Positions 26,879 to 34,304 of a DNA stretch of 64,000 nt are shown here, piece by piece. The position numbers and the translations under genes were made by a program. Numbering within the stretch: the first letter of the stretch is position 1; every line of letters starts with the position of its first letter. The stretch is from Terriglobales bacterium (GTDB taxonomy: Bacteria; Acidobacteriota; Terriglobia; Bryobacterales; Bryobacteraceae), in assembly GCA_027485675.1 (NCBI GenBank), contig JAIXQP010000007.1:124001-188000 (forward strand). The letters run 5' to 3'. Under the pieces are notes generated by a model that had not been told where the DNA came from, searched no databases, and saw only the letters and a program-made list of their open reading frames with translations.

Positions 26879-26994
26879 TTTAACTCGCGCCCGAGACGGG
26901 ATACCCGAAAATAAATCTGCGCGGCATGATCGGAATCGACTTCGTTTCGCGCCCTTGCCAGTGAGCGGGGTAGAATCCGGCTCAGTAGGAACCT

Positions 26995-27561
26995 ATGTCA
27001 ATCGAAGCTGATGTCACCAGTTTGCTGGTGGAGTGGAAGTCCGGCAACGAAGACGCCAAGGAACTTTTGATTCCGCTGCTATACGACGAACTGCACCGGA
27101 TGGCGGAGCGGTACCTGCGCAACGAAAGCGGAGCGCGGACGCTGCAGCCGACGGCGCTGGTGCACGAGGCCTATTTGCGTCTGGTGCAGCACAGCCTGCC
27201 CGACTGGGAGAGCCGGGCGCACTTTTTCGGGGTGGCGGCCTACCTGATGCGGCAACTGCTGGTGGAACATGCGCGGCGCAACCAGACGCAGAAACGGGGA
27301 CAAGGAAAAGTTCACCTTCCCTTTGACGAAGCGTTGACGTTCGCGCCGGAATCAAGCCGAGACATTGTGAATTTGGACGCCGCGTTGCAGGCGCTGGCGG
27401 AATTCGACGAGCGGAAAAGCAAAATCATCGAACTCCGATTTTTCGGAGGGCTCACCCTGGACGAAGTGGCGCGGGTGCTGACGATCTCCCCGGCCACCGT
27501 AGGACGAGAACAAAGGCTGGCGGAAGCATGGTTGTACCGGGAAATGCAAAGCGAAGCGTAA
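26995..27561 (+). CDS. ECF-type RNA polymerase sigma factor (TIGR02999-like)
   Basis: A 188-residue sigma-70-family protein without regions 1 and 3. Region 2 is visible as PLLYDELHRMAERYLRNE, LQPTALVHEAYLRLV and WESRAHFFGVAAYLMRQLLV, the pattern I know for the Planctomycetes/Acidobacteria subfamily TIGR02999. Region 4 has KSKIIELRFFGGLTLDEVAR and a helix-turn-helix SPATVGREQRLAEAWLYREM. The stop overlaps the kinase ATG (TAATG), so translation is coupled. In related genomes these sigma factors are paired with Ser/Thr kinases, which suggests kinase control of their activity. Confidence 0.9.
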   Translation: MSIEADVTSLLVEWKSGNEDAKELLIPLLYDELHRMAERYLRNESGARTLQPTALVHEAYLRLVQHSLPDWESRAHFFGVAAYLMRQLLVEHARRNQTQKRGQGKVHLPFDEALTFAPESSRDIVNLDAALQALAEFDERKSKIIELRFFGGLTLDEVARVLTISPATVGREQRLAEAWLYREMQSEA

Positions 27562-30338
27562 TGACTCCGGCCCGCTGGAAGCGGGCGGGCGAGCTGTTCC
27601 ACCAGGCGCTGGAACGGCCGGCCGGCGAGCGCCGGCCGTGGCTCGGCGAACTGTGCGCCGGCGACACGGAGATGCTGGCGGAGGTGGAGTCGCTGCTCGG
27701 CAGTGATGCGGATGGCGCGGGGAAGATCCTGGCCGACAAGATTGAGCCTGCGTTCTCCGCCCTGGTCCGGGGCAACATGCCGGAGCGGGCAGGCCCGTAC
27801 CGGCTGGTGCGGGAACTGGGGCGCGGGGGCATGGGGACGGTGTACCTGGGAGAGCGCGACGACGACGAGTATCAGACCAAAGTCGCCATCAAACTGGTGC
27901 GGCGCGGGATGGATACGGGCATCATTCTGAACCGGTTTTACCGGGAGCGGCAGACGCTGGCCCGGCTGCAACATCCCCATATCGCCCGGCTGTTGGACGG
28001 ATCGACAACAGCGGACGGCGAACCGTATATCGTCATGGAGTATATCGAGGGCGACCGGATCACGGACTATTGCCGCGCCCACGAACTCAACACGACACGG
28101 CGGCTCGAACTGTTTCTCGATGTCTGCAAGGCGGTCGACTACGCCCACCGGCAGTTCGTCGTGCACCGGGATCTGAAGCCGGGGAACATCCTGGTGGACC
28201 GGACCGGCGCGGTGAAGCTGCTGGATTTTGGCATCTGCAAGCTTCTGCAGGCGCCCGCGGTGTCCGGCGACGAGACGATGGAATTCGAACGGGCGCCGCT
28301 GACGCCGGACTATTCGAGCCCGGAACAGATTCGGGGCGAGGCAACGACGATCGTCTCGGATGTGTACTCGCTGGCGGCCGTGCTCTATGAGCTCCTGACC
28401 GGCGTGAAGCCGCACCGCATAACCGAATACACGCTGCGGGGGATTGAGCGCGGGATCTGCGAGGAGGAGATCGCCAAGCCGAGTACGGTGTGTGAGGACC
28501 GCGCGGTGAGCCGGCAGTTACAAGGTGATCTCGATACGATTCTTCTGCTGGCGCTGCAGAAGGATCCGCGGCGGCGGTATGAGACGATCGAGCAGTTCGC
28601 GGCGGATGTCCGGCGGCATCTGGCGCATCAGCCCGTGAAGGCCCGGCCGGACACGCTGGCCTACCGGGCGGGGAAGTTTGTGCGGCGGCGGCGCGGTCTG
28701 GTGGTGTCGGCGGCGTTGGTGGTGCTCTCGCTATTGGCGGGGGTATTGGTATCGATGCGATCAGCACGGATCGCCAACGAAAACCTGCAGTTGGTGCGCC
28801 AGCTCTCGAACACCTTCGTGTTCGATGTTTACGACGCAGTCAGCGATCTACCGGGTTCCACCCGGGCCCGGCAACTGGTCGTGCAGACGGGCCTGAAGTA
28901 CCTCGATAACTTATCGCAAAACGCAAGCGGCGACGAGGAGTTCCAGGTGGAACTGGGGATGGCTTACCGGCGAATCGGCGACGTCCAAGGCAACGTGATG
29001 AAGGCGAATCTGGGGGACACCGCCTCGGCCATGGCAAGCTATGACAAGGCGATGAGGCTGTTCGAGGCGGTGCTGGCCAAGGATCCGGGGCATGGGAAAG
29101 CGTTAGGTCAGATGCTGAGCTTACATCTGGCGATGGGCGCGGTGCTCGAGTACACGAAGAACACCAAGGAATCGATCGCCACCTATCGGAAGGCGGTGGA
29201 GCTGGCGGCGGCGGTGATGCAGGCGAATCCGGAGGATCGGGGCATTCGAGAGCACCTGGCGAGCGCTCACGCCGCTCTGGGCCGCGGATGGCAACGGAGC
29301 GGCGACCTCGCGGCGGCACGGCAGAGCTACTTACAGGCAAAGGAGCTTTTTGAGCCGTTGGCTAAGGCCGCCCCTGGAAATCGGATTCTGCAGGGTTCCT
29401 TGGCGACCGTGTATGGAGGCATTGGAATGGCCGATGCCCGGATGGGCCGGATGCAGGAAGCGCTGGCGGGGCATCGGAAAGCCGCCGCCATCCGAGAGCA
29501 ACTCGTGGCAGCGAACAGTGCGAACGTTGACTACCAACGGGAGCTGATGTTCGCGTACTCGCACATCGGAGACGTGCTGGGGAACCCCAACCTGCCGAAC
29601 CTGGGCGAAACGGCTCGCGCTGTGGAAGCCTACGAGAAGATGCTGGTGGTAGCCCGGAGAGTGCAGGAGGCCGACCCGTCCGATCAGCGGGCGCGCGGCG
29701 ACTACAGCATCGCCCTTTCTCGCGTGGCCCAACTGCTGCCGGAGGCGCGGTCCCGGGAACGCGTCGAGTTAATCCGAAAATCCTTGACGTTGCAACAGGA
29801 GGTGGCCGCCCTGGACCCACAAAATGTGGACATCCGCACGGCCATGGCGACGAACTACAACTTCCTGGGAGACGCCTATGGCAGCTTGAGGGAAGACGAG
29901 AACGCAGCACAGGCCTACCGGGCGGGGCTGAAGACAGTGGAGCCTCTTCTGCACGTCGGAAGCAACCTGATTTCGACGACCTGCCTGCTGCTCTATCAGA
30001 AGCTCGGAGAGGTGCGAGTGAGGCAGGGCGCCAGAGAGGAGGGACTCGCCTTGGCCCGCCGGGCGCTGGCACTTTCTGATCCGGCCAGTCCGGTGACCCT
30101 AAGGCGCCCGGAGGCTACGCGTAAGACCTTCACTGCCCGGGGCTTGGGGGCGGTCGGCCGCGTGTACGCACGGGCGGCGCGTTCGGCCGGAAGCCAGCCC
30201 GGCGACGCCGCCGAGGCGCGGCGGTGGTTAACGGCGAGCCTGGCGGAGTACCGGAGGTTGGAGAACAGCCCGGTGTTCAACAACGCGCACCGGCGGGATG
30301 TGAATGAGGTAGCCAAAATCCTCGAGGGGGTGAGATGA
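27561..30338 (+). CDS. Transmembrane Ser/Thr protein kinase with periplasmic TPR-like repeats
   Basis: A 925-residue protein. The first 50 residues carry the family lead-in (W....ELFHQALERPAGER.PWLGELCA). The kinase domain is at about 80-350: P-loop GRGGMGTV (87-94), AIK (Lys 111), HRDLKPGN (202-209), DFGICK (222-227) and a DYSSPEQIRGE activation segment, all key residues intact. One membrane helix (VSAALVVLSLLAGVLVSM) follows near 380. The remaining about 530 residues form helical repeats of TPR type outside the cell membrane. ATG 27561 is selected because it overlaps the sigma-factor stop and begins the family lead-in. I infer a sensor kinase acting on the sigma factor or its partners. Confidence 0.92.
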   Translation: MTPARWKRAGELFHQALERPAGERRPWLGELCAGDTEMLAEVESLLGSDADGAGKILADKIEPAFSALVRGNMPERAGPYRLVRELGRGGMGTVYLGERDDDEYQTKVAIKLVRRGMDTGIILNRFYRERQTLARLQHPHIARLLDGSTTADGEPYIVMEYIEGDRITDYCRAHELNTTRRLELFLDVCKAVDYAHRQFVVHRDLKPGNILVDRTGAVKLLDFGICKLLQAPAVSGDETMEFERAPLTPDYSSPEQIRGEATTIVSDVYSLAAVLYELLTGVKPHRITEYTLRGIERGICEEEIAKPSTVCEDRAVSRQLQGDLDTILLLALQKDPRRRYETIEQFAADVRRHLAHQPVKARPDTLAYRAGKFVRRRRGLVVSAALVVLSLLAGVLVSMRSARIANENLQLVRQLSNTFVFDVYDAVSDLPGSTRARQLVVQTGLKYLDNLSQNASGDEEFQVELGMAYRRIGDVQGNVMKANLGDTASAMASYDKAMRLFEAVLAKDPGHGKALGQMLSLHLAMGAVLEYTKNTKESIATYRKAVELAAAVMQANPEDRGIREHLASAHAALGRGWQRSGDLAAARQSYLQAKELFEPLAKAAPGNRILQGSLATVYGGIGMADARMGRMQEALAGHRKAAAIREQLVAANSANVDYQRELMFAYSHIGDVLGNPNLPNLGETARAVEAYEKMLVVARRVQEADPSDQRARGDYSIALSRVAQLLPEARSRERVELIRKSLTLQQEVAALDPQNVDIRTAMATNYNFLGDAYGSLREDENAAQAYRAGLKTVEPLLHVGSNLISTTCLLLYQKLGEVRVRQGAREEGLALARRALALSDPASPVTLRRPEATRKTFTARGLGAVGRVYARAARSAGSQPGDAAEARRWLTASLAEYRRLENSPVFNNAHRRDVNEVAKILEGVR

Positions 30339-30757
30339 CGCGGCGGGACAAACAGTTAGTGCGGGAGAGCTTTCGCGGTTTAGAGGAGGTAGCCGAACCC
30401 TTGGCGCTGTTATTCTACGGGCGGCTATTTGAGCGGGAGCCGGGGCTGCGGCCGATGTTTCGGGGCGACCTGGCCGCGCAAGGAAAGAAGCTGATGGAGA
30501 TGCTGACGGCGGTGGTAGAGAACCTGGACCGGACCGAGTCCCTGACGCCCGTCTTGCAGGCGATGGGGCAGCGGCATGCGGGGTACGGGGTGACCGCCCG
30601 GCATTATGAGCTGGTGGAGGAGGCGTTGCTGTGGGCGTTAGGGCAGGCGCTGGAGTCCGGGTTGGATGGGGAGGGCCGGAGGGCGTGGCAAGCGGTGCTG
30701 GGTCATGTGAGTGCGACGATGCAACAGGGCGCCGCCCTGCTTTCGGTTCCGCGCTAG
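30335..30757 (+). CDS. Single-domain globin
   Basis: A 140-residue globin of the bacterial, neuroglobin-like type. The proximal heme His lies in GQRHAGYGV, the distal region reads MFRGDLAAQGKKLM with Gln at the position usually filled by a distal Gln or His, and 'YELVEEALLWALGQAL' begins helix G. There is no reductase domain, so it is not a flavohemoglobin. It could store or sense O2, or react with NO. Its ATG overlaps the kinase stop (ATGA), so all three genes (sigma factor, kinase, globin) are translationally linked. A direct gas-sensing input to the kinase is attractive but unproven. Confidence 0.88.
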   Translation: MTRRDKQLVRESFRGLEEVAEPLALLFYGRLFEREPGLRPMFRGDLAAQGKKLMEMLTAVVENLDRTESLTPVLQAMGQRHAGYGVTARHYELVEEALLWALGQALESGLDGEGRRAWQAVLGHVSATMQQGAALLSVPR

Positions 30758-30950: not shown

Positions 30951-33900
30951 CTAGGAAGTTTGCGGAGCCGGGCGCTGCGTGGTCTTGGCTTGCCCGAGAT
31001 TCTGGTGGAGCTGGAGAAGGCTGGGAGCGTTCGACCGCAGGGAGGCGGGGAGCGTCCACGGTTGGCTGGAGCGGAGACGGACAAGGCCGAGAGCCGCTTC
31101 CGCATCGACGGGCCGCGAGAAGTAGTAGCCTTGACCCAAGTCGCAACCAAGGTGTGCCAGTTGGGTCCAGTGATCTTCGGATTCGATGCCTTCGGCGATC
31201 ACGCTGATGCCGAGGTTGCCGGAGAGATTGACGATCGACTCGACGATCTTGCGGCCATCCTGCTGCGGATCAACATGCTGGTCCATGGCCTGCACAAAAC
31301 TGCGGTCGACCTTCAGGGTGTTGAACGGCAACCGGTGCAGCTGCCCCAGGCAGGAGTAGCCGGTGCCGAAATCATCCACTTCGAGGGAAACACCCATGGC
31401 GGAGAGTTCGTTGAGGATCGACTGCGCGACAGCCGGATCGTCGGCGAGTATGCTTTCGGTAACCTCCAAGTGGAGGCGGGCGGGCGCAAGACCGGTCTCA
31501 GCGAGAACATCCGCGATCAGCGCCGACAGTTTGGGGTCGGCGAACTGGAGCGCCGAGAGATTGATACTCATCGAGAGCTCCCGGCAGCCCGGGAACTCCG
31601 CTTCCCAGGCTGCCAGTTGGCGGCAGCCTTGCGCCAGCACCCAACGGCCCAGGGGCAGGATAAGTCCGTTCTCTTCGGCAGCGCGAATGAACTCGGCCGG
31701 ATGGAGCAGCCCGCGCGTCGGATGCTGCCAGCGGACTAGCGCTTCGAACCCATCCAGCCGGCCGCTGTGGAGATCGACCTGGGCTTGATAGTGCAGGAGA
31801 AACTCCTGCTTTTCGAGCGCCCGGCGAAGATCGGTTTCAAGAGCCAGACGGGCGACCGCGCGGGCGTGCATGCTCGAATCGAAGAGCCGGAACTTCCCGC
31901 GGCCGGCAGCCTTGGCCTGATACATCGCGGTGTCCGCGTTCCGCAGCAGGTCTTCGACGCTCAAGAGCCCGGGATCGCTGAGCGCGATTCCAATGCTGGC
32001 GGAGGCGAACAGGAGGGAACCATCAAGGTGGAAGGGCGGCTCCATTTCCCGTTGCACGGCCTGCGCCACGGCGATGGCGGTCTGGCCGCCGGGAGCGTCA
32101 TTCAAAACGATCACGAACTCGTCGCCGCCGAGCCGACCCACGAAGCCGCTGGCGCCATCCACCTGATCGAGCGCGGCAAGCAGCCGGCGGGAGACACCGA
32201 GCAAAAGATGATCACCCTTCACATGCCCCAGGCTATCGTTGATCAGCTTGAAGCGATCGAGATCCATGAACAGCAGAGCGAACTGGCGGCTGGGATCGTC
32301 ATGCTGGCGGGACAGCAACTGGTCGAGGCGATCCACGGCGGCGAGCCGGTTGGGCAGGCCAGTGAGGGGATCAACCAGTTTTCCGGCCGTGATGTCCGAG
32401 GTCGAACCAGCCATCCGGAGGGCGCGGCCGTCGGGTCCCCGAACGGCCGCACCACTCGTCAGCACCCAGCGCCAGGTACCGTCAGCGTGCTGAATCCGGT
32501 GTTCGGATTCAAAGACTTCGCTTCCCGGCTCACGCAGGAACTGGCCCAACTCCCGGCGCAAGGAGCGGATATCGGCGGGATGCACCCGGTCGAACCAAGC
32601 CTCCGGAGTCCCGCAGGGACTGTTCGCCCCGAGACCGAACATCTCCCTCCAACGGGGTGAGTAGTAGACATGGCCAGTGCGCACGTCCCAGTCCCAGATC
32701 CCGTTATTGCTCCCGCGAACGGCGAGCGCATAGCGCTCCTCGGCGTCCCGCAAAGCCAACTGCGCGCGGCGCTGCTCGGTGATGTCCCGGGCGATCGCCT
32801 GAAAGCCGGCGATGCGGCCATCGTCATCCAGCAAGAGCTGGGTACTCTGGCCGATCCAGCACGACTCGCCGCCCGGTCGCCGCAGTTCGAACTCCATCGA
32901 CGCCACGGGAACGCGGCCGCGCATCTGCTGGACCGCGGCGAGGCGAACGGCGTGCCGGTGAGCGGGATCGACGAATGCCAACAGATTCGCACCCGGCGGG
33001 ACGGAGCCAGTGAGGCGCGCAAAGGCTGAGTTGTAGAACGTAAGGACACCGGTTGGGCTAGTCCGGTAGATGATGTCGGGGGAGCTTTCGACGACTTGGC
33101 GATATCGGTTCTCGGAGTCGGCCAGCTGGGCGGTGCGTTCGATGACTTGGCGATCGAGGTCCATCAGCGCGGAACGCAACTGGCGGTGGGAGGAGTGCAG
33201 GCGCTGGCCGAGGCGGCGGAACTCGGAGTCGATTTGCGCGATCTCGCAGGCGGGGTAGACGGCGCTTCCCGGTGGAGCCAGCGGCGTGTCCAGATCGAAC
33301 GACTGCATCTCCTCCGCGAGCGCCGCGATCGGACCGGCCACCGTAGACGCCATCCGTTGCGCGACCCACCAGGAGAAGAAGCTGACGGCAAGAAGGGCGA
33401 GCCCGGCGAACACATAAAACTGATTCAGATCGGAGTCTACGGTTGCCACCGCCAGGAGAGAAACTACCTCCCAACCGGCGTACGGGAGAGGCAGACGGAC
33501 GGCCAGTTGCGGCTGGTTGCGCTGCGCCGGATCCACGAAGCGGTACGGGGCGCCGAAATCGGTGGCTGCCTCCGCCCGGCTCTGCGCCCAAGGCCGGAGA
33601 GGAGCATGGATCTGGGGGCGGGTCGAAAAGACAATAGTGTGGGTCTTGTCATAGACAACCACAAACGGAAGGTGGTGGGCCTCTTCGAGGGTCAGTGGCA
33701 TGCGGGCCAAGTCGATGGAACCCTCCAGCACTCCAGCGAACTGTCCGGCCTCGTCAAAGAGCGGGACGCTGATGGCCACGATAGGATCCCGCCCGAGCCC
33801 GCGGCCCTGAAATACCCCGGAAATGAAGGGCTTGCGCGTCCGTCGCGGTTCGGCAAAGTAGGGACGATCCTTCACGGAGAGTTGGCCCCCAGCGGCAGGA

Positions 33901-34304
33901 CTGAAACTGGGTTCATCGCGCCGCACCGCACGAATGACGCGGCCTTCGGCATCGGTCACGAGAAGCGAGAGGAAACCGGGGTAGACCTTGCTCGTGCTCT
34001 CCAGCCAGGTATTGGGTATGGCCGCATGGAGAGGTCTGCCGGCCGGGACGCGAGCCGAAGCGGCGGCTTGACGGAGGGCGGCCTCATGGAGAGAGAGATA
34101 GGCCGCCAAACCCTCCCGGACCCGGCGGGCGGCTTCGAGCAGGTGCTCGGTCGAGTCCTGATTGATCTGGCTCGCGAGAAAACGGCCGCCGAAAATGGTG
34201 ATCGCCAGGACAGAAAGCAGGGTAAGAGCAACCAAACGCCCCACAACGAGAGCCTTGAAGGAAGGGAGAGAGCGCCGGAAGATGGGGAGAAGAGGCTCGG
34301 ACAC
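30951..34304 (-). CDS. Membrane c-di-GMP signalling protein: Cache-HAMP-PAS-PAS-GGDEF-EAL
   Basis: A 1117-residue protein. Membrane helix 1 (about 22-44), a periplasmic Cache sensor (about 50-285, with TDAEGRVI, SVKDRPYF and PIVAISVPLFDE), helix 2 (about 297-315), a HAMP-like linker, PAS 1 (about 400-515), PAS 2 (about 520-640), GGDEF (about 645-810; RLGGDEFVIVL intact) and EAL (about 820-1080; FEALVRWQHP, DDFGTGYS, KVDRSFV and DLGQGYYFSRP intact). Both output domains keep their catalytic residues, so it may make or degrade c-di-GMP depending on the periplasmic signal. It stands alone, opposite in direction to the globin operon. Confidence 0.92.
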   Translation of the reverse strand: MSEPLLPIFRRSLPSFKALVVGRLVALTLLSVLAITIFGGRFLASQINQDSTEHLLEAARRVREGLAAYLSLHEAALRQAAASARVPAGRPLHAAIPNTWLESTSKVYPGFLSLLVTDAEGRVIRAVRRDEPSFSPAAGGQLSVKDRPYFAEPRRTRKPFISGVFQGRGLGRDPIVAISVPLFDEAGQFAGVLEGSIDLARMPLTLEEAHHLPFVVVYDKTHTIVFSTRPQIHAPLRPWAQSRAEAATDFGAPYRFVDPAQRNQPQLAVRLPLPYAGWEVVSLLAVATVDSDLNQFYVFAGLALLAVSFFSWWVAQRMASTVAGPIAALAEEMQSFDLDTPLAPPGSAVYPACEIAQIDSEFRRLGQRLHSSHRQLRSALMDLDRQVIERTAQLADSENRYRQVVESSPDIIYRTSPTGVLTFYNSAFARLTGSVPPGANLLAFVDPAHRHAVRLAAVQQMRGRVPVASMEFELRRPGGESCWIGQSTQLLLDDDGRIAGFQAIARDITEQRRAQLALRDAEERYALAVRGSNNGIWDWDVRTGHVYYSPRWREMFGLGANSPCGTPEAWFDRVHPADIRSLRRELGQFLREPGSEVFESEHRIQHADGTWRWVLTSGAAVRGPDGRALRMAGSTSDITAGKLVDPLTGLPNRLAAVDRLDQLLSRQHDDPSRQFALLFMDLDRFKLINDSLGHVKGDHLLLGVSRRLLAALDQVDGASGFVGRLGGDEFVIVLNDAPGGQTAIAVAQAVQREMEPPFHLDGSLLFASASIGIALSDPGLLSVEDLLRNADTAMYQAKAAGRGKFRLFDSSMHARAVARLALETDLRRALEKQEFLLHYQAQVDLHSGRLDGFEALVRWQHPTRGLLHPAEFIRAAEENGLILPLGRWVLAQGCRQLAAWEAEFPGCRELSMSINLSALQFADPKLSALIADVLAETGLAPARLHLEVTESILADDPAVAQSILNELSAMGVSLEVDDFGTGYSCLGQLHRLPFNTLKVDRSFVQAMDQHVDPQQDGRKIVESIVNLSGNLGISVIAEGIESEDHWTQLAHLGCDLGQGYYFSRPVDAEAALGLVRLRSSQPWTLPASLRSNAPSLLQLHQNLGQAKTTQRPAPQTS

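Follow-up and report, generated by a model that had tools for sequence, protein, structure and literature searches.

Within a 64,000-nucleotide stretch of the genome of a Terriglobales bacterium (contig JAIXQP010000007.1, positions 124,001 to 188,000; hereafter the window), the genes of an extracytoplasmic function (ECF) sigma factor, a Ser/Thr (Hanks) kinase and a single-domain globin follow one another on one strand and are joined by overlapping stop and start codons. A survey of related genomes for this sigma-kinase-globin order, as recommended in a first-pass annotation of the window, identified a total of 20 such trios in 16 Acidobacteriota genomes. Because related globins and kinases are fused in relatives, it is suggested that the globin informs the kinase of oxygen or a similar gas. 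On balance, we consider it probable that the globin serves the kinase as a heme sensor or regulatory subunit and that the kinase in turn would activate the sigma factor by phosphorylation.

The sigma-kinase-globin operon

The gene identities given in the first-pass annotation (ECF sigma factor, TPR-Ser/Thr kinase, single-domain globin) were borne out by the open reading frames and by Pfam and NCBIfam matches. Pfam assigns Sigma70_ECF (3.5e-53) to the first product, Pkinase (7.8e-45) together with TPR matches to the second and Globin (1.6e-15) to the third, and the sigma factor scores 203.5 bits against the NCBIfam model TIGR02999 (cut-off 126.15). The annotation's TAATG and ATGA overlaps were likewise found by direct reading of the sequence. 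The features of the operon, all on the forward strand, are as follows:

26971..26976, +, TAGAAT, a -10-like hexamer and possible promoter, 24 bases ahead of the sigma start codon
26995..27561, +, ECF sigma factor gene, 188 amino acids, TIGR02999 / PF07638 family; stop codon TAA
27145..27156, +, codons Q51-P52-T53-A54 in sigma region 2.2, at the DAED position, with T53 as the putative phosphorylation site
27559..27563, +, TAATG, where the sigma stop and the kinase start overlap; the kinase ATG uses the last A of the sigma TAA
27561..30338, +, Ser/Thr (Hanks) kinase gene, 925 amino acids, with a single predicted transmembrane helix and TPRs in the C-terminal part; stop codon TGA
27798..28583, +, kinase catalytic domain, residues 80-341, with AIK, HRDLKPGN and DFG motifs
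28695..28760, +, transmembrane helix predicted by a hydropathy scan at about residues 379-400, behind RRRR
30335..30338, +, ATGA, where the kinase stop and the globin start overlap (direct sequence reading)
30335..30757, +, single-domain globin gene, 140 amino acids, Hell's Gate globin I (HGbI)-like

A short overlap alone is ordinary in such a genome, and it is the conservation of the overlap that counts.

Conservation of the trio and of its kinase-globin junction

In the window's own genome (6.6 Mb, 97% complete), 18 TIGR02999 sigma factors above the cut-off and 32 kinases were identified, and 12 of the 18 sigma factors form same-strand adjacent pairs with a kinase. A globin follows two of these 12 pairs, and these two globins are the sole matches of the globin search in that genome. 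Since the only two globin matches fall behind two of the 12 pairs and the other 10 pairs are without one, the linkage exceeds what chance would give. None of those 10 pairs has an overlapping same-strand third gene as called by the gene caller (0/10); the next gene lies on the opposite strand in four cases and on the same strand without overlap in six, at distances of 9 to 1487 bases. We therefore rejected the idea that the trio is a general feature of sigma-kinase pairs.

To find trios elsewhere, the neighborhoods of globin matches were searched with the sigma, kinase, TPR and globin sequences of the window. Within the family, 20 of 150 genomes have a globin match and 12 contain trios, 16 in all, with four genomes, including the window's own, carrying two each. 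Five further globin-matching genomes of the family contain more distant globins, with no sigma or kinase match within the fetched stretch. A scan across GTDB genomes gave 321 globin loci, and the best 80 of these comprise 14 trios, one remnant and 65 with neither; all 14 trios are in Acidobacteria, and three (L062, L066, L093) come from genomes new to the count. In a sample of the phylum, 28 of 396 genomes match, and the neighborhoods from 17 of these genomes besides the window's own contained one trio (L170, genome G274), which belongs to another class.

Some of these loci are incomplete. The trio L042 has a frame-shifted kinase, and in L035 and L049 a TPR kinase end stands upstream of the globin at a contig end. 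At L040 (also L276; genome G135, same genus), the trio is decayed, and a C-terminal kinase remnant (kinase matches 34-69 residues long and 29-48% identical, lowest E 1e-4) is joined to unrelated coding sequence before the globin with the ATGA junction kept, through either recombination or an assembly join. The first-pass annotation had held that finding the globin next to unrelated genes in close relatives would speak against its proposal; all 23 trio-type globins adjoin a kinase, a kinase end or a remnant. Globins of this family that are less closely related have other surroundings; some trio-bearing genomes contain such globins as well, and so do other phyla.

The overlap between kinase and globin genes is 4 bases (ATGA, GTGA, TTGA) or 1 base at all 23 junctions, including those of L035, L049 and L040. 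Seventeen of the junctions were taken from gene calls and six were read by eye; among them, the overlap in L045 rests on an in-frame TTG start read by eye, the gene caller's start being 44 bases past the kinase. In L039, the sigma and globin genes were missed by the gene caller and shown by a six-frame search. The sigma-kinase spacing is looser, ranging from -4 to +14 bases, with about 100 in L039 and -37 in L062, where the start is probably wrong. An all-versus-all comparison of the genes flanking 18 trios distinguished 12 settings, with good matches only within three groups of near relatives. Matches across groups involve only widespread families, namely kinases, short repeat domains, a family of ~990 amino acids and the second globins of L043 and L045.

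These second globin genes (L043:6052-6462 and L045:10041-10475) occur in two members of the family and are divergent from the trio sigma gene; the one in L043 has apparently lost its proximal His region.

Trees and co-inheritance

A quick tree built from 79 kinase catalytic domains unites all 20 trio kinases within a clade of 23 members (SH-aLRT 99), and the trio labels require 3 changes on this tree, compared with a mean of 18.1 after shuffling. The simplest history would be one gain and two losses. The tree of 88 globin domains is poorly resolved, having few columns, and a branch with support 99 sets apart the trio-type globins: 18 trio globins together with those of L035, L040, L042 and L049, with L039 outside this tree. 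Two sequences covering less than half of the alignment columns (L310, L073) were also placed on the trio side and are left out of this count. Pairwise distances among 18 trios, near-copies included, are correlated for kinase and globin (Mantel r 0.92), sigma and kinase (0.89) and sigma and globin (0.89), and such matching distances demonstrate inheritance as a unit rather than contact.

An HGbI-like globin with intact heme-pocket residues

The best match of the window globin among solved structures is HGbI (3s1i, 3.3e-25). Alignment to HGbI places the pocket residues at Tyr28 (B10), Gln49 (E7), Leu53 (E11) and His81 (F8), the last being the intact proximal His that the first-pass annotation had noticed. 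Although the identity of trio globins to the window's falls to as low as 42%, Tyr B10, Gln E7 and His F8 are invariant in two alignments of trio globins (17 and 18 sequences). Leu E11 is found in 18/18 sequences of the larger alignment, and L039 has Phe. HGbI binds O2 with very high affinity, its autoxidation is low, and the Tyr and Gln at these positions hold the ligand (PMC4476040, PMC11203436). As judged from the alignment, the window globin keeps these O2-binding pocket residues.

The protein matches PF00042 only, without PF11563, and is not of the truncated globin or protoglobin type. It is also not a flavohemoglobin, as it consists of a globin domain only in 140 amino acids and scores 52 bits against NF009805 (cut-off 432). 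It is not a classical globin-coupled sensor either, being a PF00042 globin encoded by a separate gene with no fused output domain, but it may work like one. The pocket points to O2 as the likeliest ligand, as does, weakly, the presence of one PF00115 match in the own genome, with NO, CO or a redox change as possible alternatives. This PF00115 protein scores 514.7 bits, and a second, NorB-like, member was not found in that genome. NO from the organism's own denitrification is thereby disfavored as the signal, although the evidence is weak and other sources of NO are possible.

Kinase topology, sigma factor motif and upstream region

The catalytic motifs of the window kinase are intact (AIKL, HRDLKPGN, LLDFGI). 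A pattern search over 18 trio kinases missed the DFG motif in L045 and the HRD motif in L093. From the predicted helix, the kinase domain would be cytosolic and the TPR part outside, probably in the periplasm. The globin should meet the kinase side of the membrane, because its N-terminus is hydrophilic by eye with no signal peptide and the kinase domain is predicted to be cytosolic.

Ordinary ECF sigma factors have DAED at the position where the window sigma factor has QPTA, and a Thr is present there in 18/18 aligned trio sigma factors. In ECF43 sigma factors, an uncharged Thr motif at this position is considered to render the protein dependent, for its activity, on phosphorylation of this residue (PMC13147305, PMC8999054). 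The window sigma factor shares two traits with them, the uncharged Thr motif in place of DAED and the adjacent Hanks kinase.

Of 12 non-redundant trio operons, 5 have a TANAAT sequence no more than 45 bases upstream of the sigma start, compared with a mean of 0.58 and a maximum of 3 in 2000 shuffles; this enrichment would fit a housekeeping promoter. No common motif was seen among the trio promoters compared. Operon autoregulation was considered and rejected. Ahead of the sigma gene, the window and its two nearest relatives align poorly, and the sigma start of L033 was perhaps called too early.

Kinase-globin fusions and looser associations in other lineages

A Hanks kinase and an HGbI-type globin were found within one protein in 29 cases, from three phyla and in several architectures. 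This survey covered mainly frames >700 amino acids from the fetched part of matching genomes and, in Myxococcota and Planctomycetota, a minority of the frames of 300-700 amino acids, and 21 of the 29 fusions were scanned with Pfam. In Acidobacteriota, 11 of 13 globin frames >700 amino acids contain a kinase, the exceptions being L179 and L312. Six of the nine Pfam-scanned Acidobacteriota fusions have the order kinase - Fer2 - globin (L180, L181, L299, L309, L310, L311), three of these six with a weak cyclase match, and the other three have the order kinase - leucine-rich repeat (LRR) - globin (L302, L304, L305). The latter three adjoin another kinase gene, which in L302 follows a TIGR02999-like sigma factor. 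Two further fusions outside the Pfam scan, L300 and L301, group with L299 in the trees.

In Myxococcota, 69 of 377 genomes have a globin match, and 17 of 21 frames >700 amino acids contain a kinase (L329, L333, L335-L343, L345, L347-L351), as Pfam confirmed for 11/11 of those scanned. The additional parts of these fusions are Fer2, LRR, an alpha/beta hydrolase, or a cNMP-binding domain with an aminotransferase-like one. The four frames without a kinase are L332, L334, L344 and L346, with L334 and L344 being fusions of a methyl-accepting chemotaxis protein (MCP) with a globin. In Planctomycetota (globin match in 56 of 392 genomes), no kinase was found in 14 frames >700 amino acids, and one shorter kinase - globin protein (L387) is present; among six long frames scanned with Pfam, five are MCP-globin proteins with PAS domains (L373-L376, L382) and one contains a globin only. 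MCP-globin proteins also account for 7 of 12 proteins scanned from the loci of the GTDB scan, all from Alphaproteobacteria (L073, L079, L094, L102, L108, L113, L124). The Pfam scan identified a sigma domain in none of the fused proteins scanned.

Among MCP-globin proteins, PAS or GAF domains are present in some, and L073 and L124 have two globin domains.

Looser associations of globin genes with sigma-kinase pairs were also seen. At L176, L296 and L298, from the class of G274, a sigma-kinase pair is flanked on both sides by globin genes of opposite strand. At L313:5965-10355, from that class as well, the order is globin-sigma-kinase on one strand, 24 bases apart, and at L174:3288-8423 (G438), the globin lies two genes behind the pair on the same strand. 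In four genomes from one family of the phylum (L171, L173, L177, L178), the globin is divergent from the sigma-kinase pair at about 0.6-1.2 kb, with L172 as a fifth, looser case. In a planctomycete, a globin frame (L385:3785-4414) is antisense in the gap between a TIGR02999-like sigma factor and its kinase. A few of these links could be due to chance, given some 12 such pairs per such genome, and our argument relies on the trio and the fusions. A globin ~1 kb upstream of a large kinase in Polyangium (L085, L088, L091; one genus) was left out as evidence.

Proposed mechanism and competing explanations

In the mechanism that we favor, a cytosolic globin would bind O2 (or NO or CO, or change its redox state), and coupled translation would match its synthesis to that of the kinase. 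Acting on this membrane Ser/Thr kinase as its soluble sensor or regulatory subunit, the globin would influence, in either direction, phosphorylation of the co-encoded sigma factor on Thr53 of QPTA. The phosphate would supply the negative charge that the sigma factor otherwise lacks for binding RNA polymerase, and the genes under its putative control would be switched on. The first-pass annotation had suggested that the globin adds a gas or redox response to the sigma-kinase relay; the genomic side of that suggestion is upheld by the conservation, the sensor role gains from the fusions, which could not be seen in the window's sequence, and the mechanism itself is no more than likely.

A number of observations weigh against this mechanism. 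The trio is patchy, present in 12 of the 150 sampled genomes of the family. Three kinases of the trio clade have no globin, as checked in six frames (L218, L228, L231), so the kinase can exist alone. No docking site was found: trio-specific kinase residues were considered as a candidate, with 13 positions passing the filter and 11 of them on the predicted cytosolic side, and were rejected. Globin-less members of the clade keep most of the positions specific to it, which therefore mark the clade and not a globin contact. In the trees, the fused kinases and globins lie in other clades than those of the trio, with the Myxococcota ones outside the trees; because of this, the fusions represent analogy, not orthology. 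Regarding the sigma factor, other TIGR02999 members of the own genome, without a globin, carry similar uncharged motifs, and therefore the switch is not peculiar to the trio. In EcfK, moreover, replacement of the corresponding Thr51 by Ala alone leaves a working protein, and a second site, Thr106, matters (PMC13147305). By analogy, the activation model may therefore need more than Thr53.

The main competing explanation, which we judge unlikely but worth weighing, is that the globin is an effector, i.e., a NO scavenger or O2 buffer made together with a stress-responsive sigma-kinase pair that senses otherwise, via its TPR part. It would accord with the frequent occurrence of same-family globins alone (among the best 80 of 321 loci, most lack a sigma or kinase match within reach) and with the globin search of the own genome, which gave no third match such as a flavohemoglobin. 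However, the globin has no reductase domain and the three-gene operon no reductase gene, and an effector role leaves unexplained both the invariant overlap with the kinase and the recurrent kinase-globin and MCP-globin fusions. The -10-like element near the start also hints, weakly, at housekeeping rather than sigma-driven expression.

It is also conceivable, though improbable, that the direct target of the globin is the sigma factor, for which it would be a heme-dependent anti-sigma factor or chaperone, with the kinase as a separate input. The globin is co-inherited with the sigma factor almost as tightly as with the kinase (see the Mantel coefficients above), and the operon, to which this check was confined, contains no other candidate anti-sigma protein. 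Yet the invariant overlap joins the globin to the kinase, not to the sigma gene, and the fusions are to kinases and MCP domains, with no sigma domain in the scanned fused proteins. Finally, that a globin inserted once by chance behind one sigma-kinase pair and was kept there without function is very improbable and already disfavored by conservation: a single gain does explain the trio clade, and three of its members lack the globin, but the pocket residues have stayed invariant despite the sequence divergence, the trio was kept while its surroundings changed, the overlap survives even in the decayed L040, and separate kinase-globin associations exist elsewhere.

Returning to the sensor reading, a broader version of it, on which our opinion is evenly balanced, is that HGbI-type globins serve as the sensors of a large and seemingly undescribed class of heme-gated Hanks kinases in Acidobacteriota, Myxococcota and Planctomycetota, with the window representing a split form in which gas or redox state controls sigma factor activation.

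Relation to known systems

Among sigma factors, the closest parallels are the ECF43 systems EcfP/PknT of Vibrio parahaemolyticus and EcfK/PknS of Xanthomonas citri, in which the sigma gene likewise stands beside a Hanks kinase and a Thr motif replaces DAED, with EcfK keeping one negative charge (QATE) (PMC13147305, PMC8999054). The available portions of these papers mention no globin. As the window sigma factor was placed by TIGR02999 and not by an ECF group number, its likeness to ECF43 consists of the motif and the adjacent kinase.

Among globins, HGbI of Methylacidiphilum infernorum has the Tyr B10 and Gln E7 pocket in common with the window globin, and HGbRL of the same organism is a putative sensor that would signal via a fused Roadblock domain, unlike the separate globin of the window; the word kinase is absent from that paper (PMC4476040). 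In classical globin-coupled sensors, the globin domain, generally N-terminal, is part of a chimeric protein (PMC1457004), whereas in the window it is a protein of its own. HemAT, globin diguanylate cyclases, AfGcHK and the RsbR stressosome resemble the proposed system in that a globin feeds a signaling output. Classical globin-coupled sensors generally use S-family globins; by contrast, the window globin is flavohemoglobin-like and its proposed output is a Ser/Thr kinase with a sigma factor. The kinase-globin fusions of the three phyla similarly tie globins of the same family to Hanks kinases, but within one polypeptide that has Fer2, LRR, hydrolase or cNMP-binding parts and no sigma domain.

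In the literature searched, comprising titles and abstracts with subscription papers mostly outside it, no description was found of a globin that accompanies a Ser/Thr kinase or belongs to a sigma-kinase operon. Neither kinase-activated sigma factors nor globin sensors are new by themselves; what is new is their combination. To our knowledge, the signals sensed by bacterial transmembrane Ser/Thr kinases are mostly unknown, and a co-encoded globin would offer a concrete, testable signal for one such pathway. If the proposal is true, O2 or NO sensing would lie upstream of the phosphorylation of sigma factors by kinases, of which there are few worked examples (PMC13147305, PMC8999054). If the fusions behave alike, globin-gated Ser/Thr kinases would form a bacterial family of their own, in addition to the histidine kinases, cyclases and chemoreceptors already known.

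Neighboring genes and other globins of the genome

Convergent with the globin gene is a large gene on the reverse strand of the window (30951-34304), which by eye encodes a PAS-GGDEF-EAL cyclic di-GMP protein; among the trios compared, it adjoins only the window's trio and those of its two nearest relatives. The second trio of the own genome is L036 (C24). Its counterparts in relatives, L037 and L038, have another sigma-kinase pair after the globin; in L036, this following pair is missing, and the globin directly overlaps a gene for a 276-amino acid protein with an Lnb_N domain. The genome also encodes one truncated hemoglobin (PF01152) at G000:C33:22369-22677, on a contig distinct from those of both trios.

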